This document shows, piece after piece, positions 44,772 to 63,655 of a DNA stretch of 64,000 nt. This DNA is from Lentinula raphanica (taxonomy: Eukaryota > Basidiomycota > Agaricomycetes > Agaricales > Omphalotaceae). Below the pieces are notes generated by a model. That model made no database searches. It had not been told where the DNA came from and saw nothing but the letters and a program-made list of their open reading frames with translations. Position 1 is the stretch's first letter. Every line of letters begins with the position of its first letter. The stretch lies in NCBI GenBank assembly GCA_027919835.1, contig JANVFP010000014.1, positions 434,001 to 498,000 on the forward strand, read 5' to 3'. Position numbers and translations under genes: made by a program.

Positions 44772-44775
44772 CCGG
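44772..44775. repeat. Target-site duplication, left (CCGG)
   Basis: CCGG before the 5' LTR matches CCGG at 62718-62721 after the 3' LTR. The uninterrupted sequence would read TTACCGGTACGT, placing the insertion on the exon/intron junction of the HECT-like gene. Confidence 0.8.
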
Positions 44776-46466
44776 TAATACGCCCATTTTGCGTGCAGGC
44801 ATGCAATGGCCTAATTTTAACGATTAGAGCCTTGTAGAGTACTAAAGGACTGTAGTGAGCCCGAGCTGACAGTCAAACTTGTATCATGTTAATGCCAGGA
44901 CGTCAGATCCAGACAGGAAAACACATCCTGACGAATAATAAGAGTTCACACTCGAGTCCCTTGGTCGGGGAGTCCTTCAAGACAAAGCCACCTCTGATAT
45001 GAGCTATCAAGGGATTATCAACTTAGTTTTCAACGCCTAACGGCCAACTGAGTATGATACTGCACCGAGACGAGCTTAGAACCACTAGATCTATTCGTAT
45101 TACCAGTGGGGATGGATTATTCAAGGCCCAGACTCAACAGATCTGTTCACTTAGATCGAGTTTCGGGATGGATCAGGTCGCAGGAATGTGACTAAACGGA
45201 GAAACAACCAAAGTGTATCATCCCAGTTACATGTGGACGTTTCCTAAATGGGAAATAGACGCCTGAGATGTACAGCTTTGACCAGGAGTGTTGCAAGGGT
45301 AGATCTTTCGACTTCACCATTGTTAAACCTCTGGATCTATTCGATATATGCATATCGTTGGAAAGCTAGAAGCCAAACGAACCTATTGGGACAGGTTTCC
45401 CCCCTTTAAATGTACTCCCATTCAGTTGGAGAGGCATACAACCGTTCACATAGCGGAATCAAATGAGGAAACGTTTGAGTTACCTGTGCAGGAGCTTATC
45501 CGTGCCCTTTAACCACCAGCATGTGGATGGACGCACAGACCAGGTCCGGATTCGAAGGTCAGGCAACTAGATCTCGACAAAGGACCACCAGAAATGGACA
45601 TTTTACTTGTTTTTATCCTTTTTACTCTCTGTTTCTCTGGTGTTTGTATCGTTTCTCGTCCTATCTTTCCTTATTTGTATCAGATCTCGGACTCCGTTCT
45701 CTCAAATCTATAGATCTATTCCATAAAATAGTAAATTGGCTACAGATCTCTTCGTAGAAGTACTTAAGGACGTAGCCTACAAAAATATATTCAGGTTTTG
45801 TGCCCAGTTTCTCTGACTAGCTAACCTTTGCTCTCATACGTGAGGAGTAAAGGCTTTGTAAGCCGGGCGGTCTTCGGAAGTGGTTGTGAAATTCTCATCT
45901 CGTTAGGCCCGATATCTTGTCAGTTGATAAAGTCTCAGCTAGATTTGAATCGAAGGTAGACTCCTATCGTGGAGATACAGAGGGCTTGGTTCTCGGTTGT
46001 TCCAAGTGAGCGTTCAGAGTTTCGGTGGCTCTGTTCAAGCAGACGTGTGGTGATCGGTGATCCATACGAGCTGTGAAGGTTTTCTGTGATCGGTGATCAG
46101 TAGATCTTCAACCTGGTTCTGATAGTATTTGTGTGGTCATAAAGTCTGATCTATACGAGTTCTCTCGTTCCTTGTAAACCCTTTGAGTGGATCACTCACC
46201 CCCTTCGAGTCCAGATCAAAAGATCTGTACTTCCGTGTCACTTCGCTCTGTTGACCTGTATTGCGGATCCAGTAGATCTTTTAAGACTACCAGTTCGTTC
46301 TAAGGTATAAGATCATGCGGAATCTCTGACAACGCCCCACACCTCGCTTAAATACATTGACAAACGACATAAGAAGTATATTGGTGATCAGTGTTCAGTG
46401 ATAAAGTCACTAGGTCATTAGATCTATCCAACGAAGCATTAAATTGCACCCTTCATATCCTCGTTA
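44776..46466 (+). repeat. 5' LTR
   Basis: 1,691 bp, starting TAATACGCCC and ending CCTCGTTA, so the termini are TA...TA, not the usual TG...CA. An open frame at 45521-45757 is present identically in both LTRs and is probably not coding. Confidence 0.9.
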
Positions 46467-46468
46467 TC

Positions 46469-46485
46469 TGGAGTCCACCGCGAGG
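46469..46485 (+). other. Primer-binding site candidate
   Basis: TGGAGTCCACCGCGAGG begins 2 bp after the 5' LTR. The TGG start fits pairing to a tRNA 3' CCA end; the tRNA species was not identified. Confidence 0.55.
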
Positions 46486-46560
46486 GGTGGAATCTATATT
46501 TTGGAACGAACTCGAGAGATCTATCGATTTCTCAAACCATTGCCTTAGGTCGAACTTTGT

Positions 46561-48438
46561 TTGATCTTAAAAATAGCTCCAAGGGAGTCTCGGACGTCGA
46601 AGAACGCAGGTTCTTTAGATTACTTTGATCCAGAGGTGCAAGCCCCGGATAAAAGAAAACGTGTTACAAAGAAGCCTACGGTTCCTGTCTACGATCCGAA
46701 GAACCTCGGACGAGCAAAGAGCAATCCGGATAACGGGACTGCTGCTAGATCTGCTTCTGAAGTTCCAAGAACGAACAGATCTGGTGTAGTGCAAGGAAGC
46801 AGTAGACGTCAGGCAGTTACTGCTGAACCAGTCGATTTGACTAGTTTGAATCCTACATTACCAAACTCTATTTCTTTTGACTTGCAACGTATCGTGTTTG
46901 GGAACAGAATACCAAATATAACGATGAGTACTACACAAAATGGCCAAAATGCACAAGGTGCAAACGAGGCTCCAGTGGATATCCTCAAACTGTTGGGACC
47001 TCCTGCGTTGTCTCCTGAAGAGCAAGGGGAATACAACAATGCAAAGTTCCCTGCCACTCATAAAACGGCTATGATCTTGGATCTAGCTGATCCGATCCAA
47101 ATGCCTGAATGGATGAGGTTCTGTCTAACGACGTTCCAAGCCACGGGTGTGACCTCTGAAAAGGTGAAGATGCAAAGGATCTTTGGATGGATGACCCTCC
47201 AGACGAAGCAAGCCTTAGAGCATCTCCCTGGAGCGGAGGAAGGAAAGGAAGATGCAGATCAATTCCTTCGAGCCATGATTGAGCGGTTCCCGTCTATCTT
47301 TGGCAAACCCCTGGGTTCCAAGAAAGCTATGCTGGAATTGGTTCAGAGGTTTCGACCATTGAGAGTCGAGGATGGATCTGAGCTGTTGATCTATTGCATG
47401 TTGTTCGAAGTCGAGGCCAATAAGTTGTTGAAACCGCCTCCGGCGATTGGAAACCATGAATTGGTGTCGGTCTTTCTATCAGCATTCGATGGAAACCTGA
47501 GAAAAGCTGTCTCGAAACGGGTTCAGCATCAGGTCCCCAACTCGAAACTTGCAAAACGACGTACGGATGATCCATACACGTTCTCGGAATGGAAAAGTGC
47601 TGCAGAGGCTGTGGCTAGGCAGCCCCCTCTCGAATCGCTATACCAGACCTTTACTGGAACGGATGGAGCTGTCCTGAATGCAGAGACCAACTCTAGGGGA
47701 GGGATCTATATTCCGGTGGTTACCCCAGCAGCTGCTAAAGAGGAGACGCCAGATCTGACCCGTTTCTTTGCTACAGACACTAGATCTAGTGTTAAGCAGG
47801 AACAGGCAGAGGACCATGAACGTGCCTTTGTGGAAAATGTGGACAAATCGTCGTTGATGCTCAAAGAAATGGGGAATCTTAAGACGCGTTTTCAGGATGA
47901 ACTGACGTCGTTGCAGCAGTTGCTCAATGATGTTAGGGCAGGAAAATCGGATGCTGGAATGCGACCCCAGCCCAGACCTGGCTTTTCTGGTAGTGGTAAT
48001 CCCGGAACCAGTGGGCAGGGTCGAGGGATCCTTAATATAAATCCCCCTCCAGGCCAAGGAATGCCAGATCGAACGTGTTTCTTGTGTCGAGGACCAGATC
48101 ATATGATGAGTAACTGTCCCTTGTTCATGGAACTCCTTGGGAAAGGCTGGGTGATGCCGGAGTCTCAAGGATCCAAACGTCTCAAGCTGAAAGATGGATC
48201 TCCGTTACCAAATAACTTTGGTCCGGAAACTCGATACCAAAAGATCGTGAAATATGCTCAGAGCAAGAACTGGCCTGTTTTGGCGACGTTATACAATGAT
48301 CTAATCCCCGATGAAGAGGATTATGCAGATCAGTTGGGGGATCCTACTTGGTTGTACCTTGCCAACGTAGTTGAATCTTCCCAGGGGAGATCTAGCAACA
48401 ATGTTGCAACGGTGTACAGTAATGAGTCGGGAAACTAG
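46561..48438 (+). CDS. gag: Gag polyprotein of the LTR element
   Basis: The open frame runs from an in-frame TAG at 46546 to the stop at 48436-48438. The first in-frame ATG is 46924 (MSTTQNGQNAQ), giving 504 residues; about 120 open codons precede it without an ATG. Capsid-type sequence (MPEWMRFCLTTFQATGV, QFLRAMIERFPSIFGKP) is followed by one zinc knuckle, CFLCRGPDHMMSNC (CX2CX4HX4C), near 48075-48120. Gag packages the RNA. The last three codons before the stop form the slippery heptamer GGGAAAC, so some ribosomes shift -1 into the protease frame. Confidence 0.88.
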   Translation: MILKIAPRESRTSKNAGSLDYFDPEVQAPDKRKRVTKKPTVPVYDPKNLGRAKSNPDNGTAARSASEVPRTNRSGVVQGSSRRQAVTAEPVDLTSLNPTLPNSISFDLQRIVFGNRIPNITMSTTQNGQNAQGANEAPVDILKLLGPPALSPEEQGEYNNAKFPATHKTAMILDLADPIQMPEWMRFCLTTFQATGVTSEKVKMQRIFGWMTLQTKQALEHLPGAEEGKEDADQFLRAMIERFPSIFGKPLGSKKAMLELVQRFRPLRVEDGSELLIYCMLFEVEANKLLKPPPAIGNHELVSVFLSAFDGNLRKAVSKRVQHQVPNSKLAKRRTDDPYTFSEWKSAAEAVARQPPLESLYQTFTGTDGAVLNAETNSRGGIYIPVVTPAAAKEETPDLTRFFATDTRSSVKQEQAEDHERAFVENVDKSSLMLKEMGNLKTRFQDELTSLQQLLNDVRAGKSDAGMRPQPRPGFSGSGNPGTSGQGRGILNINPPPGQGMPDRTCFLCRGPDHMMSNCPLFMELLGKGWVMPESQGSKRLKLKDGSPLPNNFGPETRYQKIVKYAQSKNWPVLATLYNDLIPDEEDYADQLGDPTWLYLANVVESSQGRSSNNVATVYSNESGN

Positions 48439-48502
48439 AGGATCCAATGATTGAGTCGAGCAAGGGACGAAAAACAAGGTCCCAGCTGAAGGACACGACT
48501 CA
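48429..48502 (+). promoter_or_regulatory. gag-pro -1 frameshift site and hairpin
   Basis: Gag frame reads TC[G GGA AAC] TAG, with heptamer GGGAAAC at 48429-48435, the canonical X XXY YYZ form. The -1 frame stays open into protease. Downstream stems: TGAGTCG (48452-48458) with CGACTCA (48496-48502), enclosing GGGAC (48464-48468) with GTCCC (48479-48483). The spacer of about 16 nt is longer than usual. Confidence 0.75.
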
Positions 48503-49925
48503 TGAGGATGAACCTAAGCCCTGTTCATTGAAAACTGTGCCTCCCACTAAGACGAAACGTTTTGATGGAGTGCACATACCCGTAGATCGAAATCACCCAA
48601 ATTTTAAAACTGTTGCCAATCAATCCAAATCTGCTCCTGAACCATCCAATTCGAAAGATCTGAATGGAAAATCGAACAGATCCAATCATTCATCAGGGGA
48701 TGCTTCACTAGGGAAGTCGAGATCTGTTAGTGTCGAAGAGAAATCGGATAAAGAGGATTCTGATTCTGAAGTAGAATTAGTTGAGGAAACTAGTGAGACC
48801 ACTCGCAAAGTGCGTTTCAGGGAGCCCTCCCCCTCTAGATCTGACGAAACACATCGACCTTTTGATCATGTCCCACCCAGGGAAGTGTCACCCATACCTC
48901 GAAATCAACCAAAATCCAAACCGGAGAAGGTCACTGAATCTAAAGGATCTTCGAAGGGACCCAAATTTCGGCTTCGGAATGAGTTATTCATTCCAGGCCT
49001 TGAAGAAGAATTAGCTGATCGGATTTCTCGTCAAATGATCACACTGACGGCTGCTGAGGCATTCCAATTGTCAGGCAAAGTCAGGCAGATCATGATGAGG
49101 AAGATGAAAAACCGCCAAGTGCGTCCACAAGAACGAATCAAGTCCTTTGTTAATGAGGCCCATGATGTTGAACCTAGTGTCGAGGAAATCCCGAGAACAG
49201 GGATGGAGATGCAACAGTTCATTGCCGTGGAAGATCTCAGTCTGTCAGAAGGATTGATCTTTGAGAAAATACTCGAGGATCGAGATGGCATGAAGGCAGG
49301 GGATTATGTTCAGTTGGATCCGGTGGTAGCTTTTCTTCATGATGTTGATGAAAATGATTCACGTCGTGATATGACTATAGTAGCCACTATGGGAAATGGC
49401 TTAAGATCTGTGTGGCCAGTTGTGAATAATCGAGATGATCTAGACATAGAGAGTGTATTAGACTCTGGATCTCAGATTGTTGCTATCGATATGTGTGTTG
49501 CCCTAGGATTAGGACTAGGTTGGGATCCGAAAGTGACCATCCAAATGCAGAATGTGCATGGAGGTCTGGCCCGTACCAAAGGACTGTCCAGGAACGTACC
49601 ATTCCGATTTGGACCCATAACACTGTATCTACAATGCCATGTGCAGGAAAAGGCACCCTTCGAAATTCTGTTGGGTAGACCTTTCGATGTACTGACAGAA
49701 AGTGTCATCCATACGTTTGGATCTGGTGACCAAGAGTTAACCATAACAGATCCGAACACTGGAAAGCAATACACCATAGGGACTAGTCCGAGAGGACAAA
49801 GTCCTAAAGCTCAAAAACGGCAGTTGGATAAGCAGAAGTATGCTCAGACTCGGACAGAGACTCCAGATCCAAATCAGGAGACCAGTCCCGAAGAAGAGGA
49901 GAAAACTGCTGAACCAAATTTTTAG
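48447..49925 (+). CDS. pro: Retropepsin-type protease ORF
   Basis: 492 residues in the -1 frame relative to gag. The first ATG is 48447, but the frame is open back through the GGGAAAC site, so it is likely made as a Gag-Pro fusion. A long charged linker (Ser/Lys/Glu) precedes the protease core: VLDSGSQIVAIDMCVALGLG (catalytic DSG) near 49465-49515 and FEILLGRPFDVL near 49665-49695. The charged C-terminal tail ends at TAG 49923-49925, immediately after the second slippery heptamer. Separate pro and pol frames are unusual for Ty3-type elements. Confidence 0.85.
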   Translation: MIESSKGRKTRSQLKDTTHEDEPKPCSLKTVPPTKTKRFDGVHIPVDRNHPNFKTVANQSKSAPEPSNSKDLNGKSNRSNHSSGDASLGKSRSVSVEEKSDKEDSDSEVELVEETSETTRKVRFREPSPSRSDETHRPFDHVPPREVSPIPRNQPKSKPEKVTESKGSSKGPKFRLRNELFIPGLEEELADRISRQMITLTAAEAFQLSGKVRQIMMRKMKNRQVRPQERIKSFVNEAHDVEPSVEEIPRTGMEMQQFIAVEDLSLSEGLIFEKILEDRDGMKAGDYVQLDPVVAFLHDVDENDSRRDMTIVATMGNGLRSVWPVVNNRDDLDIESVLDSGSQIVAIDMCVALGLGLGWDPKVTIQMQNVHGGLARTKGLSRNVPFRFGPITLYLQCHVQEKAPFEILLGRPFDVLTESVIHTFGSGDQELTITDPNTGKQYTIGTSPRGQSPKAQKRQLDKQKYAQTRTETPDPNQETSPEEEEKTAEPNF

Positions 49926-49972
49926 ATAACCTCTGTGATCTGAGTAGCGATCAGGGAGAGGTTGAAATCGCT
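49916..49972 (+). promoter_or_regulatory. pro-pol -1 frameshift site and hairpin
   Basis: Protease frame reads CC[A AAT TTT] TAG, with heptamer AAATTTT at 49916-49922. After a 5 nt spacer, AACCTCT (49928-49934) pairs with AGAGGTT (49957-49963); inside it TGATC (49936-49940) pairs with GATCA (49949-49953). AGCGAT (49946-49951) could also pair with ATCGCT (49967-49972), giving a pseudoknot. The pol frame is open from the heptamer onward. Confidence 0.82.
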
Positions 49973-52900
49973 GTGAGTGGGTATTGGGATCCTTTAGGTG
50001 AAGAAGTAGTCATTGAGTCGACCAAAGTGAAAGAAGGAGTGTTCCAAGACGAAGAATTGGCCGAACTATATGTTAATTATAGCCAACCCTCGTTTAGGGA
50101 TTCACTTCCTGAAGTCGCTGAAACCATAGATCTATACCTAAACAAAGGTGTGGACCATCAACAAAATCGTGTGATCAATCCTTGGAAGGAAGGATTTCGA
50201 ACTGATCCGGACGTGGAACAACTTGAACAATCCTTTTATCAGTCTATTAAAGCTAAGAGTCTGACGAGAGACGTTCATGGGTTGTCCCGGCCAAGTGATT
50301 ACACTTCAGATCTGGACCATGTAAGTCCAGATCAACCGGATAATTCCCAGTCCTACGACTTGAGGAGTGCCCGGGAACGAGTTCAATCGTGGGAACAAAA
50401 GAATGGAACATTTGAACAGCATATAGGCGCATATAGTGACCCAATGTCATCATATTCAAATGTATCTGTCTTCGGTTCTCGAAAATATAAGCCTGTTGCG
50501 TTGAAAGTACGCCCGGTTAAGGCTGAACTTCCTGAGGAATTTAGGGTTCGTCGTCATATCTTTGGAGATCCTTTGGAAGGATTGCCAGATCTGCCGACTC
50601 ATCCACCTGAATTCACTCCGGGAGTCCGATACACGCAAGAGCGTAAGGAGATTATTGACAAGAACCATCCAGAAGGATTCTTAACAAATGAGGAACGAAA
50701 ACTCGTTCATCATCTGATGAAGGTTCAGGAAATGGGTTTTGCCTGGGATCAATCCGAAGGTGGAACTTTCAGAGAGGATTTCTTCCCTCCAGTAAAGATT
50801 CCGGTTATACCTCACGAACCCTGGGTCGAGAAAAACATTCCCGTGCCTCCAGGAATCTTTCCAAAGGTTTGTAAGATAATCAAGGATAAGATCCTTGCAG
50901 GAGTTTACGAACCATCGAGTGCAAGCTACAGATCTAAATGGTTCTGTGTGGTGAAAAAGGATGGAACGAGCCTAAGATTGGTGCACAGTCTGGAGCCTTT
51001 GAATAAGGTTACTATACGGCACTCCGGGGTTCCCCCAGCTACTGCGGACATTGCTAGACACTTTGCAGGCAGAGCATGTGGAGGGATCTTGGATATCTTT
51101 GTGGGCTACGATGAGAGACATATAGACGTTGGATCTAGGGATCTCACCACTTTCCAAACTCCTTATGGACCACATCGTCTCGTCAAATTGCCTATGGGAT
51201 GGACCAACTCGGTACCAATCTTCCATGACGATGTAACTTACTTGTTACGAGACGAAATTCCTGAATATACTATTCCTTACATTGATGATGTACCTGTGCG
51301 AGGACCCGAGAGTCGATATGAGTTACCAGGTGGTGGCTATGAAACCATTCCGGAAAACCCACAGATCCGTCGATTCGTATGGGAACATCTTCAAAACGTG
51401 AATCGGATCATCCAACGAATGAAGCACGCTGGAGGTACCTTCTCAGGACCTAAAGCCTTCGTTTGTTGTGAGGAAACCACAGTGGTTGGACATCGTTGTG
51501 CCTATGAAGGACAGAAACCAGATGATAAGATCGCTACTACGGTCTTAACTTGGCCTAAATGCGAAACTCGAACACATGTGAGAGCTTTTCTGGGGACTGT
51601 TGGCCAGCTTCAAATGTTCATTCACAACTATTCCAAGAAAGCTGCCCCCTTGACTAAATTGACGGCAAATGTACCGTTTGAGTGGTCTGAGGAGCAGGAT
51701 CTTGCTATGGAACTACTAAAGGAAGGAGTGCGAAATGCACCAGCCCTTAGAGTCATTGTTTATGATTGGGAAACACATCTATCAGTCGATAGCTCCTGGA
51801 TGGGAACAGGATTTTACATTTATCAAGTAGATCCTAACGACCCTGAAAAGATCTATTATAATTACTTTGGATCTATTCCCTACGTGGAACGGGAAGCCCG
51901 TTTTTCACAGTCTAAACGTGAACTTTATGGTCTGAAACTTGCTTTGGAGTCCACCCATTATCTTCTTTATGGATGCCGACAACTGATAGTGGAAACTGAT
52001 GCGAGCTACATACAGGGAATGCTCGAAAACCCCAGTAGTGGCCCAAATGCAACCATTAATCGTTGGATTGAGGCAATCCGTAAATTCCATTTCGATTTGG
52101 TACATGTCAAAGGTGTGACACATGGACCTGATGGCTTATCTCGAAGACCACCTGGTGGTTGGACAACTCCTCGCGGAAAGTCGACCAGTGAAGATGATCT
52201 GGACGAGGATGACTCCAACAACATCAGGTTTCTGAAAGCAGATGATGCCGACGATCCATTCCCCTTTGATTCGTTTAAAGATCATATAGATCCAAGGCAT
52301 GGTTATCTCCTAGGAATCTATTGCCCAGATTTCGAGGAAGATCTAGAACTTGCCAGAGAAGAAGATCTTGAGCATAAACTACGAAAGGACCATCTGCTTA
52401 TGCATGGGATGCAACCAGTTTCTCAGTATCTGCAATATACCACGATTCCTGACAATGCAGTCTGGGGACCAGATCAATCATATCCGGATTCCCACAGATC
52501 TGATGGAGGAAATCGTTTGGATAAGCAGTTGCCAGAGATCTTGGAGTGGCTGAAAAACCCTGATGCAGAATGTTTCGGGAAATTGGACAAGAAACAACGG
52601 TTAGAGATGGATAGGAAAGTAATTCCCTTCTCCATTGATGCCGAAGGTCGATTGTACCATAGGAAGTTATCGTCAGATCAGCCTCGTTTAGTCGTGGATC
52701 CTGATCGACGAATGGCTCTTCTGAACAGTGCACATGATGCCCTTGGTCACAAAGGTGTCTTTGCAACGAAGGACTTCTTGGAAAAGAGGTTTTGGTGGCC
52801 AGATCTGGACAAAGACGTGGAGTGGTATGTTAAATCGTGCCAAGCCTGTCAGGATCGACAGAGGGCTCTCATTAGAATCCCTCCAACGGTTACTTATACC

Positions 52901-53893
52901 CCTTCCCTGTTTCAGAAGGTACATATCGACACCATGTTCATGACCCCATCCAGTAATGGGTGTAAGTACATAGTGCATGGTCGAGATTCACTTTCATCCT
53001 GGTCCGAGGCGAGAGCCTTAAGAGTGGAAAATGCCAGATCTATAGCTGAATGGTTCTTTGATGACATTATCTGTCGATGGGGATGTCCTGAGGAAGTTGT
53101 TTCGGATAATGCACCCCAAATGAAGCTTATGCTGAAATGGTTGGAACAAAAGTATGGGATCCGAGGAATTAAGATTTCCCCGTATAACTCTCAAGCCAAT
53201 GGAAAGATTGAGCGTGCTCATTATGATCTGAGGCAGGCCCTAGCAAAGACTTGTGCTGGAGATCTGAGCAAATGGTTCTACTTCCTGAAGCCAATGTTAT
53301 GGGCAGATCGAGTCACTCCTAGGAGGGGTCTCGGATGCTCTCCCTATTTTGTTGTAACTGGTGCAGAACCGTTACTCCCTTTTGATATCGTCGAATCTAC
53401 CTATTTGGTCAATCCACCAAATCGAATCCTCTCTCGGGAAGAGTTGCTGGGTTATCGTGCTCAGGCCCTTTCCAAACACCGTTCCTTCATTGAGAACATG
53501 AGATCCAGGATTGATGCTAATAAGCGTCGAGATCTTAGGATCTTCGAAGACAAGTTCCGATATACTATCAAGGACTGGGATTTCAAACCAGGGACCTTGG
53601 TACAGATCAGGAACACCACCATCGAGAAGAATTTGGATCGAAAAATGTATAGTCGTTACCGTGGACCTATGGTTGTAATCAGACGAACACGAGGAGGGTC
53701 TTATATCATTGCTGAAATGGATGGTACCGTACTGAAAGACAAAGTCGGTGCATTCAGAGTAATGCCTCATCATGCTCGTTTCGAACCAATAGATCTGCCC
53801 CAGAACATCCATGACCTGATAGATCTGAGTCCAGAACAACTGGAAGCTAGAGGTGCTCACGAGTGCACACTCGAGTGTACTTGCCACTCGTGA
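49916..53893 (+). CDS. pol: Pol polyprotein: RT, RNase H, integrase
   Basis: No ATG near its start; the frame is open from the AAATTTT site, so expression by -1 frameshift is expected. RT: LRLVHSLEPLNKV, GGILDIFVGYDE (catalytic Asp), YIDD at 51278-51289. RNase H: LSVDSSWMGTGFY, KRELYGLKLALE, VETDASYIQGML. Integrase: HDALGH (HX4H) and CQAC (CX2C), then VHIDTMF, VVSDNAPQ and GKIERAH as the D, D, E residues. A C-terminal GPMVVIRR block resembles the GPY/F module. No chromodomain is seen. The last 15 or so residues and the stop come from the inserted MITE at 53848; the native tail continues at 54622. Confidence 0.92.
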   Translation, partial: KFLDNLCDLSSDQGEVEIAVSGYWDPLGEEVVIESTKVKEGVFQDEELAELYVNYSQPSFRDSLPEVAETIDLYLNKGVDHQQNRVINPWKEGFRTDPDVEQLEQSFYQSIKAKSLTRDVHGLSRPSDYTSDLDHVSPDQPDNSQSYDLRSARERVQSWEQKNGTFEQHIGAYSDPMSSYSNVSVFGSRKYKPVALKVRPVKAELPEEFRVRRHIFGDPLEGLPDLPTHPPEFTPGVRYTQERKEIIDKNHPEGFLTNEERKLVHHLMKVQEMGFAWDQSEGGTFREDFFPPVKIPVIPHEPWVEKNIPVPPGIFPKVCKIIKDKILAGVYEPSSASYRSKWFCVVKKDGTSLRLVHSLEPLNKVTIRHSGVPPATADIARHFAGRACGGILDIFVGYDERHIDVGSRDLTTFQTPYGPHRLVKLPMGWTNSVPIFHDDVTYLLRDEIPEYTIPYIDDVPVRGPESRYELPGGGYETIPENPQIRRFVWEHLQNVNRIIQRMKHAGGTFSGPKAFVCCEETTVVGHRCAYEGQKPDDKIATTVLTWPKCETRTHVRAFLGTVGQLQMFIHNYSKKAAPLTKLTANVPFEWSEEQDLAMELLKEGVRNAPALRVIVYDWETHLSVDSSWMGTGFYIYQVDPNDPEKIYYNYFGSIPYVEREARFSQSKRELYGLKLALESTHYLLYGCRQLIVETDASYIQGMLENPSSGPNATINRWIEAIRKFHFDLVHVKGVTHGPDGLSRRPPGGWTTPRGKSTSEDDLDEDDSNNIRFLKADDADDPFPFDSFKDHIDPRHGYLLGIYCPDFEEDLELAREEDLEHKLRKDHLLMHGMQPVSQYLQYTTIPDNAVWGPDQSYPDSHRSDGGNRLDKQLPEILEWLKNPDAECFGKLDKKQRLEMDRKVIPFSIDAEGRLYHRKLSSDQPRLVVDPDRRMALLNSAHDALGHKGVFATKDFLEKRFWWPDLDKDVEWYVKSCQACQDRQRALIRIPPTVTYTPSLFQKVHIDTMFMTPSSNGCKYIVHGRDSLSSWSEARALRVENARSIAEWFFDDIICRWGCPEEVVSDNAPQMKLMLKWLEQKYGIRGIKISPYNSQANGKIERAHYDLRQALAKTCAGDLSKWFYFLKPMLWADRVTPRRGLGCSPYFVVTGAEPLLPFDIVESTYLVNPPNRILSREELLGYRAQALSKHRSFIENMRSRIDANKRRDLRIFEDKFRYTIKDWDFKPGTLVQIRNTTIEKNLDRKMYSRYRGPMVVIRRTRGGSYIIAEMDGTVLKDKVGAFRVMPHHARFEPIDLPQNIHDLIDLSPEQLEARGAHECTLECTCHS
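53840..53847. repeat. hAT-type 8 bp target-site duplication, left
   Basis: CTGGAAGC, repeated at 54614-54621. Confidence 0.85.
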
Positions 53894-54613
53894 CATGAAT
53901 ATTCGTCACTCAAAATCAGCAACTGTGACTCGAGTCTGTACTCGAGTGTCTCTAAGTAACAGACACTCGAGTGCGAGTGCCACGAATATTCACAGTAAAT
54001 TATTCAAATCATAACTCGGGTGTCTACTCGAGTATATAAAGGAAAGACTTGAGTATTGAAAAATACACTCGAGTGTTTTAATACTCGTTACCTTAATTTT
54101 CATAGCTTTTAATAAATATACAGTACCGAAACATATATTAACATGCTTCAAAGCAAGAACAATGTACAGATTTATTGTTATACAAAGTTGCCATGAGGGG
54201 GAATTGAACTCTGAAGGAAGTTAAAGGAAGGCTGACCTTAGTCCAGAGTCAGCGCCTTTAACCACTTCACCATTCACATTTTCTTACATATGACATATGT
54301 TAGACTATATTACTTCTTTTCTCCTAATAAATATAATAGGCAGTGGCTGTGACTCTAACACAAAAAATTATAATAGGCACATAGCCACTGAGAAAAGTCA
54401 TGTGCAGAGTTAATAGTAGAAATACTCACGAGTACAGGAGAATACTCGCGAATAAAATGCACGAGTACTTGTCAATACATTTTGATGATCGTGACTCGAG
54501 TATACACTCGTACCACGAGTACACTCGTATAAATAAAACACTCGACTCGCGAGTCACGAGTACGAATAAACTCACGAGTACTTGTCAACACTTGCCACTC
54601 GTGAACATCTCTA
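53848..54613. mobile_element. Nested hAT-type MITE (766 bp) in pol
   Basis: Terminal inverted repeats are TAGAGGTGCTCACGAGTG at the left and TAGAGATGTTCACGAGTG at the right (two mismatches), with the 8 bp TSD CTGGAAGC, both as expected for hAT elements. Subterminal regions are packed with ACTCGAGT and ACTCGTG/CACGAGTA motifs on both strands, the usual form of hAT transposase binding sites. No transposase frame. Removing the element and one TSD rejoins pol in frame. Confidence 0.88.
54187..54282 (-). ncRNA. tRNA-like (pseudo-tRNA) sequence inside the MITE
   Basis: The minus strand has an A-box-like TGGTGAAGTGG, a helix GCTGAC/GTCAGC and a B-box-like AGTTCAATTCC at tRNA-like spacing. The acceptor stem does not close, so this is a tRNA-derived or SINE-head sequence rather than a working tRNA. 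Confidence 0.35.
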
Positions 54614-54856
54614 CTGGAAGCTATGGTCGATGATGACGAGGATACCCCTGATAATGTTGAGGATCTAGTATTCGGAGCAATCCCTAAGATCAACATATCT
54701 GAGGATCCTGATGTCACATTCGATGCTTCAGCTGAAAAGGATACAGATCCTTCGGATCTGAAGGCTGCGGAGTCCGGTTCTAATGATGAAGCACCTGAGG
54801 ATGACAATTCTGAGGCAGGCCCACGTCGTAGTCGAAGGATCTCCTCATCAAACTGA
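54614..54856 (+). CDS. pol: Displaced C-terminal tail of pol
   Basis: 78 residues in the pol frame once the MITE is ignored. Acidic, Asp/Glu/Ser-rich (VDDDEDTPDNVEDLV ... NDEAPEDDNSE) with a basic end PRRSRRISSSN and a stop at 54854-54856. The join LEA-MVDDD is in frame across the single TSD. Not reached by translation in this copy. Confidence 0.8.
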   Translation: MEAMVDDDEDTPDNVEDLVFGAIPKINISEDPDVTFDASAEKDTDPSDLKAAESGSNDEAPEDDNSEAGPRRSRRISSSN

Positions 54857-54874
54857 GTTAGACCAACAGATCTA

Positions 54875-54889
54875 TTTAGTTTGGGGGAG
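54875..54889 (+). repeat. Internal PPT-like motif 1
   Basis: TTTAGTTTGGGGGAG, identical to the PPT next to the 3' LTR, here 18 bp after the pol stop. Confidence 0.75.
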
Positions 54890-55064
54890 TCCGGTCATTG
54901 ATCTTTCGAAATTTCTATCTCAACATGCTCGAGGAAGTTGGTCATCGACTGAATTACCTCAAAAACTACCTAATACGTTACTTGACTGCATATCAGGTAT
55001 AAAAATAGGTACCAGGACAACGGGAACGAATGGATCTGGTGTTTCAACTACTTCAGACGTCTAC

Positions 55065-57046
55065 CTAAGGCGCGGAATGTGGAGGAAGCGAAGGATCTAG
55101 GCGTGCTAGCTGTTCTCTATCACCTTGTGGATCACCCCTGGGTGGCATCATAAGGGGACGAGTGTAGGGTGTGTAGGAAGGAACGACAACCACTTCCTCG
55201 CGAGGATTGCTGTCGTCGTCGGCGTTCAGGGGCTTTTTCATGCGGAAAGCCTTCATGGCGTTGTCGATAATGGCCTGACTTGCCAACCCACGTCGAGCGT
55301 AAAACCTAGCTTTGACGGAACAGTCGAAAAGCTGATTCTGATGGAAGTTAACCAAGGCATTGAACTGTGCCTCGGTTTAGTTGCTGTACTCAGCAGCGTG
55401 GCTATGAGTGATATCTTGAAGGAGACGGACGAGGTCCCAGTTTTCGGAATCTCCAGGGTCGCCTGTGAAGATGATTAGCTCAGATACCACGTCCTAGAGA
55501 CAGTTCAAACGCAAGACAACATGCTAAAGTAATAGATCTAGTGATCCTTGCTGCTCTGTGATAAATAATAGAGCGAAAAGAAGAAGAAGATCTGTTGGAA
55601 ATGACTCGAGGTACTTACAAGTATCGGCCAGATCTAGGTAGACCTTGGTCCTCTTGGTCTGTTCCTCTCCGGTCGCCAGGGGCTGAACGATAGTCTCAGG
55701 TCCAGCAGTGGTTGAGTAAGGCTCAGGATTCACTGAAGTCTCGGCGGATCCTGCTGTCCCCACGTCTTGGTCCTGTCGCTTTCGTTTTCCCTTGCCCTTG
55801 GAAGCCTTCGTAGTCTCTTCCTCAGCATTCGTTCCCTTGGCCTTAGCCTTGGGTTTGGGTTCCTCTTCCATCTAAAGAATCGTCAGATCTATTCGTTTTG
55901 AGTAGATCTAAAGGTACTTACGATGATATCCGGGTCAGCCATTGGCTCAGGAGTCTCCTCGACGACCTTAGACTTCTTTTTGGACTTGGACTTAGACTTA
56001 GCCTTGGGAGACGCCTCTTCTTCACCTGCAACGTCCTCCATCTGAAGATCTTCATCAGAAACCGTTAGATCTATCAAGTGGAACGACGTACAGGGCTATC
56101 TTGGTCAGCTACTTTGACGGGAGTGCCCTTTCGATACAACTTAGCACGACGTTCGGCTCGATAAGCAAGAATGGCGTAGGCTGCAATGCCATCACAGCCT
56201 GTACTTGCCTGTTGACGACGAAGGAAGGCCGTAGTTCCCTTGGGACGGGCCTTACGTGCAGCAGCCTCGTCTTCAGCTTCGGCGGCGGCGAGATCTGCTT
56301 CCTAACTCGATGGATCAGTACTTCGGATCGACTCGACGAACAGATCTACTCACGATTTCTTCCATGAACTTCTGTTCAGCGTCAATGGGCTCGACTGAAG
56401 CACGTTCCACGGTCTTTTCTCTGGCCTTGGACGATTCCTTGCCTTTGGTCTTTGAAAATTGATCAGATCTATCGAAGGGACAAAGTTATTCGAAGCAATA
56501 CTTACTCCTGGAGTCGAGTTTTTGACTTCCTTTGCAGCGGCCTCGGCCTTCTGCATTTTGGCTCGTGTGGCGGAACGACGGATCTTGACGAGCTCGTCGA
56601 GGAACAGTTCCATCCTGGAGTCTTGTCCACCCTCATTCTTGACGTTGGGGTAGAGTCTGCCGGCCTCCTCTGCGATCTCAGAGAAGGCCATGATGCCGAT
56701 CAAGGCCTCACTCAAGGCCTCGTACTGTTGCATGTACGAAGTGTTGAGACTGGCAGCCTCCTTCGACACCTTAAGGGACTGGAAAAGTCGTCAAATGTCT
56801 GATAATGAATAGATCTAGTCATGAAATACATACAATGTGTTCATAGGCAGACTTTACATCAGCCATGATCGCTTTTCTCGTCGAAGTCTGAAGCTTGATG
56901 GATCCTTGTTGATTGATAGCAGCACTGAAGCCTAGGGTACGATCTTGACATAGTACTTTGGCCCAGTGTGCTGCATCGTCAGCCCAGTCCTCAAGCTCGG
57001 ACTCCAAACGAAGGGGAATGTTGGAAAATTCGTGGTTGGGCGCCAT
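55065..57046 (-). CDS. Antisense gene A of the retrotransposon, unknown function
   Basis: Minus-strand gene from ATG 57046 (MAPNHEFSNIPLRLESELED). About eight exons separated by short GT-AG introns, several with a GTAAGT donor. N-terminal helical region (EALSEALIGIMAFSEIAEEA, MELFLDELVKIRRSATRAK), then Lys/Glu-rich low-complexity exons (SPKAKSKSKSKKKSKVVEE). A later exon (DVVSELIIFTGDPGDSENWD) reaches TAA at 55377-55379. The same frame stays open beyond it for about 100 codons (FNALVNFHQNQLFDCSVKAR) to 55065. A TATA-like TATAAAA lies at 57086-57092. No family recognised. AGATCT recurs in its introns, as elsewhere in the element. Confidence 0.6.
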
Positions 57047-57134
57047 ATTTTTGTTTGGGAGTTGGATCTACTCGGATCAGTGCTGTTTTATATGAAAAAC
57101 TTTCCTTGACTGAGTCAGCAGGGACTGCTGAGCT

Positions 57135-57149
57135 TTTAGTTTGGGGGAG
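57135..57149 (+). repeat. Internal PPT-like motif 2
   Basis: TTTAGTTTGGGGGAG again, just upstream of antisense gene A. Motifs 1 and 2 are both followed within about 20 bp by TTTCGAAA. Confidence 0.75.
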
Positions 57150-57861
57150 GGGACACTGTGTTTCGAAAATTTTCAAAATTTAAAATTTTACGAAGTCAGT
57201 GATCTAAGTGAAACAAGCATGTGGGTAACATGTATAGCACTAGATCTGAGGCCGACGTAGCTCACATTAGTTGCCCAAAGGATTAAGAGACCTTAGGGCA
57301 GTGACCACCAACATTTTTATAAGCGAAAGGCACGAAAGAACGAATAGATCTATTCGTGTTTTCCGCATATACTCACAGATCCAGGGAACCTGTAACAAGG
57401 GATACTCTGGATCTGTTCATTTCTCTTACAAAGAGGCTCAATAGGGTCAACGGAATTGTATTTCAAAGATTTCTATTAGAGCTTACTTTATTTTACACTA
57501 TTGAGGACAGATCTATTCATGATCGTTAACTTAGTGGACTTATGAAGGATTTCACACGAGGTTCAAGATCAAATTGGCACTAAGGCCATGCATTGGAGCA
57601 GACTACTAGGGTACTACCTAAGTGTCTGTAAGAATGTACCAAGAAATATTGAAAAGACCTCAAAGGAATACTACATAGGCTACGAGTAAAGAGTTGATGA
57701 GATTTAGTCCGTATGTAGTAAAACTAGGGGTCTGTAGACGAGTCGGTGCGATTGAGATATGTACAGATCATTTTGTGCTGGTCCAAGAAGCCGCATTTCC
57801 AAACAGATCCTACCGGAGAAGGACCACCCCGCAACCCATGAGCGTCGAAACCAAGTATGAT
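57150..57861. other. Spacer between the two antisense genes
   Basis: About 700 bp with no gene seen. It contains several AGATCT sites and the region downstream of antisense gene B. Confidence 0.4.
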
Positions 57862-60549
57862 TCAAGGTTTCGCAGGATCAGGAGCGACGGAGGGGGCCTT
57901 CTTGTCATCCTTCGACTTCTTCTCCTCCTTCGACTTGTCGTCCTCGATGGGTCCGCTCTGAGCCGTCATGTGCGAGTACTCACGAACGACAGGGGGAAGG
58001 GAAGGCTCTTTGGCTGCGATTTCGTTTTCGTACAGCATGTCAGTGGAAGGGGGTGCCGGAACTTCAACTTCATGAGCCCGTATGAAGGCCTGGAACTTGG
58101 CAATACTTTCGGAATCCTTGAGGTACGCGGACAGGTTGCACGACGAGTTCCAGCCAAAGAAGGTCGCAAACCAACAGGCGGTATCATAGTCGAGTTCCTG
58201 ATTAGGATGCTCCTCGGCCCAGGCAGATAAGACAACGTTAGCGTCGAGACCAGCACGCTTCAGTTTGTTGGCCTGGCGAGCCAGGATAGTCAGGGAGTTT
58301 TGGAGCAGGCTCTCCGTGTTTTCCATGACTCGGAAGTGGTTGTCCAAGGCTTCCTGGAACTGCTCCACGGCGTCGGAATACCCTGAAAGAAGAAAGCATC
58401 GTTAGCAAAAACGCGAAGTGGTACAGATCTGTAGATACTGACCACCAGGAAGAGTGCGGACGGCTTCAGGGATGATGTCCAGAAGATCGGATTGAAGCTC
58501 CATGTGCAACGCACTGGAGCAGGTGCGATGAGACTGCTCACACCCAAAGCAGGGACCTCCGAGTTGAGCCCCAGAACGACAGTTGAGCCCCCGGATGAGG
58601 CAGGAAACGCAGTCCGTGGTCGGCGCGACGTCGGGATCGGCGGGATGAGACGAGGGAGCCAGACCCCGGGAGGTCAAGTGGGCGAAACGGGCAAGGTTGG
58701 AAAGTGAAAAGGAGACGTTTCCGGTGGTAAGGAAACTTCCTATCGCTTCCAACTCCGGAGAAACCGACCATTTAGGCTCACGAAGGATCTGCATATCATT
58801 GCGACGTTTGGGTGTACTATGAGAGGCCCGTTTATACAAAACAGAAAATGCGAGCCGAGGCTTGTAGTCGGGATTGGCCAGGTAGGACACCAGATGCTCA
58901 ACATCGGTATCGTTATCAGCCAAAGGACCAGCTGCCTCGGTTCCAGCAGGTTCCGGGAGGATAGTATCCTCGTACTCCAGCTCGTCCTCTTCGACAGTAG
59001 GAGGAGGAGTCACAGCACGAGACTTTCCTTCGGCCTTGCCTGTCCTTTGCTTCTTGGAGGCGGGAGCGTGACTGGGCTATAATGCAGTTAGAAACCCAGC
59101 GGCCGGAAGTGAGAAGCAAGAAACTTACCTCGGAAGTGGGATCATCAGGACGTTCTCTCTTGACCTTGATAAGTACCGCTGGTTTGGCCGAAGCAGGAGC
59201 TTTGCCCTTGCCCTTACCAACTGGTGGACCAACCTTGGCAGGAGAAGAACGTGTAACACGGTTTCGAGTGCTGGCCAGATTGGTACCTAAAACCAAGGAG
59301 TTAGTAATGATCGATGGGAGAGGGGCACGGTAAAACACCTACCAGCTCTTGTACGAACATTAGAACCCTTGAAAACGTCCCCGGCTTCAGGTTCATCGGA
59401 AGAGGCCTCGGTCTCTCCCAGATCAACGTCCCCTTGAAAAGGCGACGACCCGGCAGGCGAACCAGCAAAAGATCCAACGGGCGAGGCGATCCCCTCATCA
59501 CTGAGGACGGGGGAAGCAATCCCATGGTGGCTGGAAGAAGCTTGAGGAGGAGGAGTTGGTTGGGACGGTCTAGCCTGGTACTGCGGTTCGGGAAGTAGAA
59601 GCTGGTTGGTGAAAGGATCATGGAGGGCTTGTTGAGGTGTTCCGGTGCTTGCCACTTGGACGATTAACTGTCCCTCGCAGGATAGAAAGTCGAAAGGGAT
59701 GGGAATCGCCAAGGACGCCACCGTCAGGCCCCCAGGTTTGAACGAACGCTGGGAAGTAGGGTTAGCTAACGAAGGGCGAGGCCAGAAGAAGGAAAACCCA
59801 CCTTGATCTCAGCCCGAAGAGCTGCGCTTACTCCCAGACCAGCATTCTGCTTCTCATCGTAGACAAACTTTGCGTATTCGTGGGCGTCCAAGTAGCGGTC
59901 GCAGTAGTCGCTGAACAAGCAGACGAAGCGCACCGCGAACAAAGGACAAGAGCGAGACCGGTGCCAGAAATGGCGATAGTGTTTCTGCAAGAAACGTTGG
60001 TTGGATGTCAAAACAAGAGGGGAGAAAACTTACCAAAGCGTTCTGGATCTGGGGTTTCTTCAGCATCTCTAAAATGCGACTCTGAGTCTTAGAGCGCGAT
60101 TTGTTTGCTGACATGATGTCGGCCACGGCATCCTGCACGATTCGAAGTCCTTGATAAAGGAAAGACGCGTTTACGCGGCACAGGGGACCGTTAGCAAAAG
60201 GCTTGTACATCTGCACCAGTTGGGCGGGGTAGAAGTTTGTTGCAAGGTCATTGTTGTAATCAGGCGGGATGACCAATGGAAAAGTGATATCGTCAAAGTG
60301 GGCAAAGATCGGCTGCTCAAAAGCAGAGTCAAGAGTGTTGTGAGCTTTAGGCCAGAGTCGTTGTAGAACTTCAGCTTCCTCAGGTGACGAGGGCAGGAAT
60401 AAAATGGGTTTCTTTGTTGAGAGTAGACTGTCCCGAGCGCGCACCGCATCGTGGAAGGTAAACTCTGTAACGGGCGAAGAAAAGTGAATCTGCTGCGAAG
60501 TCCTGTATTGGGTTTTGCTGGTGGATGGACCCTTGCCTTTACCTGACAT
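57862..60549 (-). CDS. Antisense gene B of the retrotransposon, Cys-rich, unknown function
   Basis: Minus-strand gene from ATG 60549 (MSGKGKGPSTSKTQYRTSQQ) to the stop at 57862-57864, with about six exons. Exon 1: EFTFHDAVRARDSLLSTKKP, SPEEAEVLQRLWPKAHN, VNASFLYQGLRIVQDAVAD. Exon 2: KHYRHFWHRSRSCPLFAVRF, FSDYCDRYLDAHEYAKFVYD. Later exons are Pro/Ser-rich. A cysteine motif CVSCLIRGLNCRSG followed by GGPCFGCEQSHRTC could bind zinc. A coiled C-terminal part (AVEQFQEALDNHFRVMENTE) ends in Lys/Asp/Glu-rich sequence. Introns have clean GT-AG borders. A TATA-like ATAAAA lies near 60647-60652. No family recognised; exons join in frame, so it looks intact. Confidence 0.62.
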
Positions 60550-61010
60550 AGCGTGGGCGATAGAACAGTGGACACACGAAAAAGCGGAGAAGTTGGAAGT
60601 AAGAAAGAAAGCGGACTTAGAGAAAATTTTCGAGGTCCCGCTGCCTTTTATCCACGGTTCTTAAGAACTTCCCAGGACGTAATAAGCCACTGGGAAAATT
60701 CTAAGAATAGTAGGAAGAATTGTAATACTTACAAAGGTCAAAGAAATGAACTTTGTGAAGTTGCAGGATGTTGTGATTAGATCTCTTGATAATCACACTC
60801 GGAAATTAAGCGCTTCTATCGAGTTAGCCGCGGGTTTAATTATCATCAGTTGATCCCGAGGCAACCGAACAGATCTATAGCGTTAATGAGTGGGAATACC
60901 ATTGGGATATCGAAGAGATCAATCCAAAAGTTCGGATCAGTTGCAGTACCACACTCCTAAGGGAGGTACAAGCCTGTCTACCCAACCAGATGACCGGGGA
61001 CGGTCAGATC
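60550..61010. promoter_or_regulatory. Promoter side of antisense gene B
   Basis: About 460 bp between the gene B start and the 3' polypurine tract. No other gene seen. Confidence 0.4.
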
Positions 61011-61026
61011 TTTAGTTTGGGGGAGA
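61011..61026 (+). other. 3' polypurine tract
   Basis: TTTAGTTTGGGGGAGA directly abuts the 3' LTR at 61027, as expected for the plus-strand primer. Confidence 0.85.
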
Positions 61027-62717
61027 TAATACGCCCATTTTGCGTGCAGGCATGCAATGGCCTAATTTTAACGATTAGAGCCTTGTAGAGTACTAAAGGA
61101 CTGTAGTGAGCCCGAGCTGACAGTCAAACTTGTATCATGTTAATGCCAGGACGTCAGATCCAGACAGGAAAACACATCCTGACGAATAATAAGAGTTCAC
61201 ACTCGAGTCCCTTGGTCGGGGAGTCCTTCAAGACAAAGCCACCTCTGATATGAGCTATCAAGGGATTATCAACTTAGTTTTCAACGCCTAACGGCCAACT
61301 GAGTATGATACTGCACCGAGACGAGCTTAGAACCACTAGATCTATTCGTATTACCAGTGGGGATGGATTATTCAAGGCCCAGACTCAACAGATCTGTTCA
61401 CTTAGATCGAGTTTCGGGATGGATCAGGTCGCAGGAATGTGACTAAACGGAGAAACAACCAAAGTGTATCATCCCAGTTACATGTGGACGTTTCCTAAAT
61501 GGGAAATAGACGCCTGAGATGTACAGCTTTGACCAGGAGTGTTGCAAGGGTAGATCTTTCGACTTCACCATTGTTAAACCTCTGGATCTATTCGATATAT
61601 GCATATCGTTGGAAAGCTAGAAGCCAAACGAACCTATTGGGACAGGTTTCCCCCCTTTAAATGTACTCCCATTCAGTTGGAGAGGCATACAACCGTTCAC
61701 ATAGCGGAATCAAATGAGGAAACGTTTGAGTTACCTGTGCAGGAGCTTATCCGTGCCCTTTAACCACCAGCATGTGGATGGACGCACAGACCAGGTCCGG
61801 ATTCGAAGGTCAGGCAACTAGATCTCGACAAAGGACCACCAGAAATGGACATTTTACTTGTTTTTATCCTTTTTACTCTCTGTTTCTCTGGTGTTTGTAT
61901 CGTTTCTCGTCCTATCTTTCCTTATTTGTATCAGATCTCGGACTCCGTTCTCTCAAATCTATAGATCTATTCCATAAAATAGTAAATTGGCTACAGATCT
62001 CTTCGTAGAAGTACTTAAGGACGTAGCCTACAAAAATATATTCAGGTTTTGTGCCCAGTTTCTCTGACTAGCTAACCTTTGCTCTCATACGTGAGGAGTA
62101 AAGGCTTTGTAAGCCGGGCGGTCTTCGGAAGTGGTTGTGAAATTCTCATCTCGTTAGGCCCGATATCTTGTCAGTTGATAAAGTCTCAGCTAGATTTGAA
62201 TCGAAGGTAGACTCCTATCGTGGAGATACAGAGGGCTTGGTTCTCGGTTGTTCCAAGTGAGCGTTCAGAGTTTCGGTGGCTCTGTTCAAGCAGACGTGTG
62301 GTGATCGGTGATCCATACGAGCTGTGAAGGTTTTCTGTGATCGGTGATCAGTAGATCTTCAACCTGGTTCTGATAGTATTTGTGTGGTCATAAAGTCTGA
62401 TCTATACGAGTTCTCTCGTTCCTTGTAAACCCTTTGAGTGGATCACTCACCCCCTTCGAGTCCAGATCAAAAGATCTGTACTTCCGTGTCACTTCGCTCT
62501 GTTGACCTGTATTGCGGATCCAGTAGATCTTTTAAGACTACCAGTTCGTTCTAAGGTATAAGATCGTGCGGAATCTCTGACAACGCCCCACACCTCGCTT
62601 AAATACATTGACAAACGACATAAGAAGTATATTGGTGATCAGTGTTCAGTGATAAAGTCACTAGGTCATTAGATCTATCCAACGAAGCATTAAATTGCAC
62701 CCTTCATATCCTCGTTA
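61027..62717 (+). repeat. 3' LTR
   Basis: 1,691 bp, matching 44776-46466 with one difference seen by eye (62566 G versus 46315 A). Confidence 0.92.
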
Positions 62718-62721
62718 CCGG
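62718..62721. repeat. Target-site duplication, right (CCGG)
   Basis: Matches 44772-44775. Confidence 0.8.
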
Positions 62722-63655
62722 TACGTTCCTCCACTCGTCACCATTGCACATACTCAAGGCTTACTAGGTTTCGGTTTTGCGTGATCGGAATGAACAACTC
62801 CATCATTCACTTGCATGGAGAATGCTTCACAATGTCATCGTTGGTCCCGAATCCGTCGAGCATCCTTATTTCAAAGCCTTCTTGAAGGGCCTCCTCCTCC
62901 CGTGTGGGACTATGGGTGTGAACTTATCGGAAGTGCGTATATATCTTTGTACTCGAATGGTGGTGGTGCTCAGTGTGCTTAATCACTAGATCGCAAGACG
63001 TTTCACCGGTGGTACGAGCGAATTCGTTAACTCACTCCTCGAAACTCGTACCAAAGGCGACTATACTATGCTTCGAATTGATTACAGCAACCATATCAAC
63101 AATCTTGTTGAGCGTGAGCTCAAAGACACTCTGTCGTTGGTTTTCCCGGCATTGTCCGACAAAGGATTTCCTGCCATTTTCCGAGAGTTTCTGGAAGGTT
63201 CAGGATTGCCGCCACCTCTGACTATGCAAGAGTTGCAAGGCAGGTTCGCAGATGTAGTACCACTCGACGATGTTTCCAAGAAAGAATTCCGAATGAGAAT
63301 GTTCTGCTGGGCAACCACTGGAGTGCCTCATATCCTCGTCGATGGTTCTTATACTGAGGTGAGTGATTCCTGTTCATGTTGGAAGCTATTCTTAAACATT
63401 CCATAGGTTTGTCTTGTTCCAGACGACAGTCCCCAGTACATGAGACATGGTACTTCAGACGAGGCGCGTAGACAGCATTTGGATAAAGGCACATGCTGCT
63501 TCAAGACCTGCACGCGCATGATGTTCATACCCATATCCTATCTACTGAAGCTGTTGAGGGCACCATCTAGCGATCCACAGGAGGTCATGGACGCGATTTC
63601 TAGCTGGCTTTTCATGGAGATTCTGGATGGCGTTGGGAATTACAACATTTTGTAG

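Follow-up and report, generated by a model that had tools for sequence, protein, structure and literature searches.

Why do copies of a mobile element that are otherwise nearly identical within one genome differ so widely in a single gene? The question is raised by a 64,000-nucleotide stretch of Lentinula raphanica DNA, hereafter the window (contig JANVFP010000014.1, positions 434,001 to 498,000, or C14:434001-498000 in our contig notation), taken from one 49-Mb assembly in 75 contigs. At 44776-62717 the window carries a Ty3/gypsy-type long terminal repeat (LTR) retrotransposon with two multi-exon genes, A and B, lying antisense between pol and the 3' LTR. We found that copies of this element differ almost solely in B, for which at least 10 open natural types are found on a shared backbone, so that its function can be tested by comparing types.

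For this comparison, nine further full copies were fetched, chosen from LTR, pol and antisense matches, which gave ten full copies with that of the window. Genes A and B were spliced with GT-AG introns. The features that define the variable region are the following.

57862-60549, minus strand: antisense gene B, 6 exons (60549-60034, 59984-59802, 59748-59343, 59286-59129, 59076-58443 and 58382-57862), 805 amino acids, hypervariable between copies
57330-60626, no strand: variable cassette, its extent given by the edges of pairwise difference
60644-60652, minus strand: TATA-like box GATAAAAGG, ~95 nucleotides before the B start codon and outside the variable part

The mean pairwise difference among the ten copies was 0.8% in the 3' LTR and 1.5% in gene A, as compared to 37% in the B coding zone, a divergence of B ~45 times that of the LTRs. 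In nucleotide alignment, pairs of B were 49.9-99.8% identical. The upstream edge of the cassette, at which the mean pairwise difference rises from 2.9% to 32%, is placed near 60626, shortly ahead of the B start codon (60549). At the 3' edge, the difference falls from 28% to 0.6% over 57826-57326, reaching ~540 bp past the B stop at 57862. The TATA-like box is present in all ten full copies and in 9 of 11 further copies, and is absent from C14b and C26b, in both of which B is decayed.

The cassette is also recombined and inherited apart from its backbone. From ~58430 to the cassette end, copies C9 and C6 match the window copy at 99-100%, but over 60626-58827 they match it at 61-80%; B therefore recombines, since such mosaics occur inside it. 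C9 and C6 are 99.8% identical in B, yet their 3' LTRs differ at 15 sites, and the window copy differs from C9 at 7 LTR sites with a B that is merely 79.5% identical. Across the ten copies, LTR distance and B distance were uncorrelated (Mantel r = -0.14, p = 0.79). A sequence-only reading of this locus had held that the antisense genes travel with the element. This is correct for their position but not for their sequence as a fixed unit, as B is exchanged between copies independently.

A second, sister family allowed the same comparison. Its pol DNA is 75% identical to that of the main family, and in both of the copies that were read in part (L028 and L029), A and B lie at the same place and in the same orientation; the A proteins of the two families are 33-48% identical over pieces and the B proteins 28-33%. 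Sister pol was 97-100% identical in all 40 matches listed (best 33 of 98 candidates), and a piece of the sister LTR was 99-100% identical in 40 of 40 matches listed (best 40 of 266 candidates). The sister B zone, in contrast, matched itself, then copies at 99, 90, 85 and 85%, then others at 64-76% over longer parts, with short pieces at 69-89% (best 40 of 42 candidates). Judged by these matches, and with two sister B genes read with provisional ends, the contrast between a stable backbone and a variable B is repeated in the sister family.

We next consider what kind of variation B shows. B was read in 21 main-family copies by a spliced-alignment script, and further B places exist in the genome. 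The reading frame was open in 14 copies, interrupted by one stop in four (C52, C18, C38 and C9b) and decayed in three (C37, C14b and C26b); among the open readings, C5 needs one extra intron, C15 needs one fewer, and the first three residues of C13 were unaligned. At a cut-off of 95% amino acid identity, the 14 open copies comprise 10 types, and the 20 aligned copies (C37 left out) comprise 15 types at 95% and 12 at 90%. The decayed C26b aside, main-family B proteins form two groups that are 38-45% identical to each other. The synonymous divergence (dS) was saturated in 28 of 55 pairs of 11 B readings. For types within one group, 13 pairs were measurable, and their ratio of nonsynonymous to synonymous divergence (dN/dS) was 0.04-0.12; in the sister pair it was 0.08. 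These values establish purifying selection. Since dN/dS is low between types of one group, the B types are, by this measure, old constrained proteins and not fresh mutations.

These results bear on local hypermutation of B by a diversity-generating mechanism. The restriction of divergence to one gene is what such a mechanism would produce. However, the coding changes are mainly synonymous, 14 of 21 frames are open, the types form two deeply separated groups, and extended tracts of 99-100% identity abut diverged ones. We regard hypermutation as scarcely credible.

The B protein offers some indication of what is being varied. Exon 5 encodes a CX2CX6CX9CX2CX6C cluster, within the most conserved B stretch among main-family copies. 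It was found in 19 of 23 B readings, among them the two sister copies and every one of the 14 open main-family copies, and is missing in C52, C37, C14b and C9b, all of which are broken. The Zn2Cys6 consensus spacing is CX2CX6CX5-12CX2CX6-8C, which the cysteines of B fit. B also has basic stretches, such as KKQRTGK. From these features, B is probably a zinc-cluster nuclear protein with a putative regulatory role. The gene models are matched by deposited proteins: a GenBank model from another L. raphanica strain matches B at 96%, the deposited C6 model equals our splicing letter for letter, and the deposited C13 model does so except in the three residues that we did not align. The B proteins in records of other strains show the same diversity. 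Protein searches with B returned solely L. raphanica sequences (10 of 10 and 13 of 13 matches, from ~8,000 best candidates each), although this is weak evidence that other species lack B, as databases of this kind contain few spliced genes of fungi.

That a young backbone carries many old B types calls for some protection of the diversity of B. We propose, with a probability of roughly 45%, that B is an old, recombining, functional specificity cassette that is kept diverse by selection for rare types and that encodes a nuclear zinc-cluster regulator of its own element. From the way in which retroelements are copied, introns in antisense orientation should not be spliced from genomic RNA; being invisible to that splicing, they would allow intron-bearing genes to survive reverse transcription and so to persist in a retroelement. 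Co-packaged RNAs would recombine during reverse transcription, most simply by template switching, and B would be traded in this way between backbones. The B protein, acting in the nucleus, may control the expression or silencing of its own element in a type-specific manner, and an element with a new B would escape control tuned to the resident types. Selection favouring rare B types would then keep old, diverged types on the young backbone. More tentatively, and possible rather than probable in our judgement, the B types may be compatibility or immunity classes among the elements of one nucleus, with rare types invading and negative frequency-dependent selection keeping the old ones, a system that would have arisen or been retained in the two sister families.

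Several observations weigh against the proposal that B is a selected specificity cassette. Between groups or families, dN/dS was 0.16-0.39 where it could be computed, values that are unreliable with dS near saturation; within types it was 0.30 for the window copy and C1 (dS 0.04) and 0.08 in the other pair (dS 0.01). All of these are well under 1 and give no direct sign of positive selection. The nine B proteins that were scanned had no Pfam match better than E = 0.24 and none to Zn2Cys6 (Zn_clus) at E = 5, no relative of B was found among solved structures at E = 5, and the predicted structure of B has low confidence (predicted local distance difference test score, pLDDT, 38). Gene A is clean in just three of the nine other full copies. 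It is also antisense and not diverse, which speaks against models resting on antisense orientation alone. The gradual fading of divergence at the 3' edge also fits passive conversion. Finally, all element DNA comes from one assembly, so that the frequency dependence of selection is a proposal drawn from the copies of a single genome.

Part of this evidence could also be produced by passive persistence, in which no selection favours diversity: the lineages of B would be old and nothing more, the rest of the element would be homogenised by gene conversion or template switching, and B would be too divergent to be converted. Divergence fades over ~500 bp at the 3' side, as it would if conversion tracts ended in diverged sequence, and dN/dS is ordinary. 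In contrast, among the nine copies with both LTRs complete, including that of the window, seven have LTR pairs with 0-2 mismatches (C37 and C1 have 11), and the copies have separate target duplications. Because LTR pairs are near-identical and target duplications separate, these are recent insertions and not old copies converted in place. B is, moreover, far more diverged than the LTRs with 10 open types retained, the same contrast is seen in the sister family, and the mosaics show recombination within B. We consider passive persistence unlikely.

The composition of B raises another alternative, that B genes were imported repeatedly from other element families or species by recombination, each type being recent. 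The GC content at third codon positions (GC3) is 0.58 in B of the window copy (0.55-0.61 in 12 copies), as compared to 0.39-0.47 in gag, pro and pol, and B cuts across LTR relationships. However, main-family types are 38-100% identical to each other (decayed C26b aside) and 29-35% identical to the two sister types. Since they are closer to each other than to the sister types, they look like one lineage held by the main family. No B was found outside L. raphanica, in databases that are poor in spliced fungal genes. Repeated capture thus described appears improbable to us.

Besides B, the element is marked by a short palindrome.

44776-61026, no strand: palindrome AGATCT, dispersed in 56 copies, with almost none in the B cassette

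The 56 copies lie in the 16.25 kb from the 5' LTR to the 3' LTR, at 3.4 per kb, whereas the window outside this part has 0.25 per kb. This ~14-fold enrichment extends across LTR, gag-pol and gene A, and the B cassette is almost without the motif. In pol, 15 copies were counted against a mean of 2.9 and a maximum of 8 in 2,000 synonymous shuffles, all of which were exceeded; protease has 5 (shuffle maximum 4), and gag has 5, which equals the shuffle maximum. The copies are dispersed, also within gag, pro and pol coding sequence, and do not form tandem arrays. The sister family has 20 in 10 kb against 4.1 expected. Its top hexamer (L028, L029) is CGGAAA, which is strongly enriched and occurs 28 times in sense and 6 times in antisense orientation in the LTR-gag-pol part of L028; this strand bias is possibly an RNA-level signal. 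An outgroup copy, L042, had no excess of AGATCT (3 in 9.5 kb) or of CGGAAA.

The enrichment is the basis of the main functional rival to our proposal, anti-silencing of the kind described for VANC, in which A or B would bind AGATCT sites and strip silencing, and B would vary as the host counter-evolves. The counts in pol, the zinc-cluster spacing of B and a precedent in the available text of PMC5735166 are consistent with this model, and the differing top hexamer of the sister family, besides its extra AGATCT, would be expected if motif and reader co-evolved. The model explains the motif but not the variation of B on the same backbone: B types of both groups sit on one AGATCT-rich backbone, so that B variation does not track AGATCT. 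In addition, the motif occurs in coding sequence and not in tandem arrays, the B cassette is without it, the excess in gag is just at the shuffle edge, and the low dN/dS is unlike an arms race. We regard anti-silencing through AGATCT as doubtful, and the idea that B reads AGATCT sites is a guess.

The remaining features of the window copy, with gene A, are given here.

44772-44775, no strand: left target site duplication, CCGG
44776-46466, plus strand: 5' LTR, 1,691 bp, TAATAC...TCGTTA
46549-48438, plus strand: gag-like open reading frame (ORF), 629 amino acids, with a weak CCHC zinc knuckle at residues 508-524, under the Pfam cut-off
48426-49925, plus strand: ORF with an aspartyl protease domain at residues 338-420, slightly under the Pfam cut-off
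49913-53893, plus strand: pol ORF, reverse transcriptase (RT)-RNaseH and then H2C2 integrase; the last part of the frame enters a miniature inverted-repeat transposable element (MITE)
53850-54612, no strand: MITE in the end of pol, 763 bp, with imperfect terminal inverted repeat GAGRTGYTCACGAGTG and a duplication of ~11 bp
55065-57046, minus strand: antisense gene A, 7 exons (57046-56834, 56778-56506, 56449-56354, 56301-56092, 56041-55922, 55871-55619 and 55462-55065), lysine-rich
57086-57092, minus strand: TATAAAA, a TATA-like box that precedes gene A
61019-61026, plus strand: polypurine tract GGGGGAGA, adjoining the 3' LTR
61027-62717, plus strand: 3' LTR, 1,691 bp
62718-62721, no strand: right target site duplication, CCGG

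With an LTR pair that differs at 1 of 1,691 bases, CCGG on both sides and gag-like, protease and RNaseH-integrase ORFs on the plus strand, the locus is the large Ty3/gypsy-like element with 1,691-bp LTRs that the sequence-only reading had described, and the two genes that it had placed antisense in the part between pol and the 3' LTR could be spliced from 7 exons (A) and 6 exons (B). Its size of 17.9 kb is correct for the window copy but is not the norm of the family. The 763-bp MITE is unique to the window copy among the ten full copies, and it has 42 matches in the genome including itself, most of them full length, at 89% or more. Because these 763 bp are a later MITE, the usual size is ~17.0-17.1 kb. 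The C52 copy is an exception in size and has a further insertion: ~5.2 kb of extra DNA lies within the end of gag (~89787-95020 of contig C52), with a junction overlap of ~6 bp, like a nested insertion.

The same reading had also raised the possibility that the 54.9-61.0 kb part was a chance insertion into this copy alone. This is ruled out, as that part is present in all nine other fetched full copies and in the sister family. A and B were in the same place in each of the nine, some of them broken, as in C37, with its decayed B, and C52, with a stop in B. Genome DNA searches scored the best ~40 candidates each, and copy counts are lower bounds. At least 38 full-length LTR matches at 98-100% were found, including the two of the window (best 40 of 310 candidates). 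Matches to pol at 98-99% covered 3,935 or more of its 3,981 bases in at least 13 places besides the window, and 3,717 bases in a fourteenth. All 14 of these nearly complete pol copies have a gene A match nearby, and 13 have a B match; at the exception, C26:33135, part of A only and no B were among the matches listed. Several full copies thus carry both antisense genes in place, and in most of them a target duplication of the copy's own matches on both sides and the two LTRs are nearly identical. On these grounds the element is supported as a stable, recently active mobile lineage.

Could the near-identity of the backbones be an assembly artefact, in which repeat collapse makes sequences around unique B cassettes look identical? 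Among six copies checked, gag-pro-pol was clean in C6 and in several frames in C9, C20, C37, C5 and C48, as it would be in unpolished repeats, and gene A needs odd introns in several copies, B being mostly clean. Either misassembly of near-identical repeats or genuine decay could account for the broken frames. In contrast, the 4-bp target duplication matches on both sides in eight of the nine copies, that of the window among them, for which the outer flanks of both ends were read (in the ninth, C37, the sides are ACGC and TCGC; for C13, the reading covered the 3' end), and protein records from other strains show B to be just as diverse. Moreover, the contrast between backbone and B survives collapse, because collapse requires backbones that are truly near-identical. 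We consider an artefact very improbable.

Gene A is 97.6-99.3% identical between copies. In the window copy it has an in-frame stop in the last exon, at a place where the other nine copies have none. It is open with the same six introns in C52, C6 and C13, and in the other six it needs a changed or extra intron, C48 having a stop as well. An exact 10-base search did not find the TATA-like box of gene A in the other nine copies. A model in which B diverges so that its mRNA avoids pairing as double-stranded RNA with the RNA of other copies is disfavoured, since gene A, which is equally antisense, is not diverse.

In pol, RNaseH (residues 590-724) is followed by H2C2 integrase (927-982), which places integrase downstream of RT-RNaseH. 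Pol had no RVT_1 match in Pfam at E = 1, and PF00078 is carried by one of 120 related pol proteins listed. A YIDD motif, which we take to be the RT motif, is seen in the translation. We read the absent RVT_1 match as indicating a divergent RT, rather than a missing one, and the element is still filed under Ty3/gypsy. A TGG sits 2 nucleotides past the 5' LTR as a candidate primer binding site; no tRNA was matched to it. Among protein database sequences, 1,097 relatives of pol were found at E <= 0.001, and the 120 listed included one from L. edodes at 68%. No relatives were found in viral contigs with pol, the pol alignment or the B alignment, or in prokaryote genome contigs with the pol alignment. 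In the outgroup copy L042, whose pol is 53% identical in the RT segment, the 3.3 kb downstream contain neither A nor B; this copy may be damaged, since its stretch of DNA yielded no LTRs. A 188-residue ORF lies antisense downstream of its pol (L042:6676-7242) and is unrelated to A or B by tblastn.

The insertion sites share a feature. All 15 that were read, including a solo LTR with CCGG on both sides, have a central CG in the 4-bp target (NCGN); ten were read on both sides, those of C37 differing in the first base. These targets suggest CpG-directed integration. Seven contigs (C1, C2, C10, C25, C32, C33 and C68) have LTRs of this family within ~3 kb of their first base; either the assembly broke at the repeat or these LTRs are subtelomeric. 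In the window, the element interrupts a HECT-like host gene (44283-44775 and 62990-63406), recognised by a weak Pfam match, below the cut-off, in the left piece only. Elsewhere in the window, at 28466-31209, long inverted repeats (703 bp, 98%) flank an AT-rich centre, likely another mobile element or a nested palindrome.

How does this element compare with known systems, as described in the available text of each source cited? In the plant Ty3/gypsy elements Retand, Grande and RIRE2, the part that separates pol from the 3' LTR contains antisense ORFs, which are a hallmark of Retand (PMC11963269). The role of these plant antisense genes is described there as unknown (PMC11963269). As in the L. 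raphanica element, pol and the 3' LTR of these plant elements are far apart, antisense genes characterise the lineage, and their products may bind DNA (PMC11963269). In contrast, their usual antisense product has a TRP28 domain, and no hypervariable antisense gene between near-identical copies is reported in the available text (PMC11963269); A and B of L. raphanica each have several introns. We found no match to TRP28 (PF04195) in the minus-strand ORFs scanned or in nine B proteins, spliced A having been scanned only in its parts. Membership in the Retand lineage, which the antisense ORFs would suggest, is rejected for want of TRP28. No report for Lentinula, or for a hypervariable antisense gene, was found in the literature, in a search that was thin on subscription journals. 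The antisense anatomy is thus of a kind known in plants, and what appears new, within that search, is a hypervariable antisense B in a fungal element.

A control gene that is encoded by the element itself, acts by type and is exchanged by recombination has a precedent in the copy number control of Ty1 in Saccharomyces: LTR subfamilies, Ty1 and Ty1', recombine, and one divergent self-encoded gene sets mutual restriction (PMC7055915). There, however, the variable gene is the sense gene gag, compared between two subfamilies (PMC7055915). Here, it is the extra antisense gene B, with at least 10 open types, for which restriction is putative. Restriction derived from gag, as in Ty1, is not indicated, since the variable gene is B and gag is ~99% identical in amino acids in the three of six copies where it is one piece.

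VANDALs are DNA transposons. Like the L. raphanica element, the VANDAL/VANC system of Arabidopsis combines an accessory gene with a short motif that is strongly enriched in the element and differs in a related family, but its motifs lie mainly in noncoding tandem repeats (PMC5735166). AGATCT, in contrast, is dispersed and also coding. Exchange of retroviral env is alike in that one downstream gene is swapped by recombination between similar retroelements (PMC10536682). B differs from env in being antisense and spliced.

At fungal mating-type and het allorecognition genes, functional alleles are numerous, old and diverged, and the divergence is highest at the gene itself. The B types are likewise old and diverged, but those genes are host loci, whereas B is part of a mobile element found at dozens of places. 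If B is a type-specific regulator, the multi-allelic recognition of mating-type and het loci would have a counterpart here, as a self-recognition polymorphism maintained inside a mobile element.

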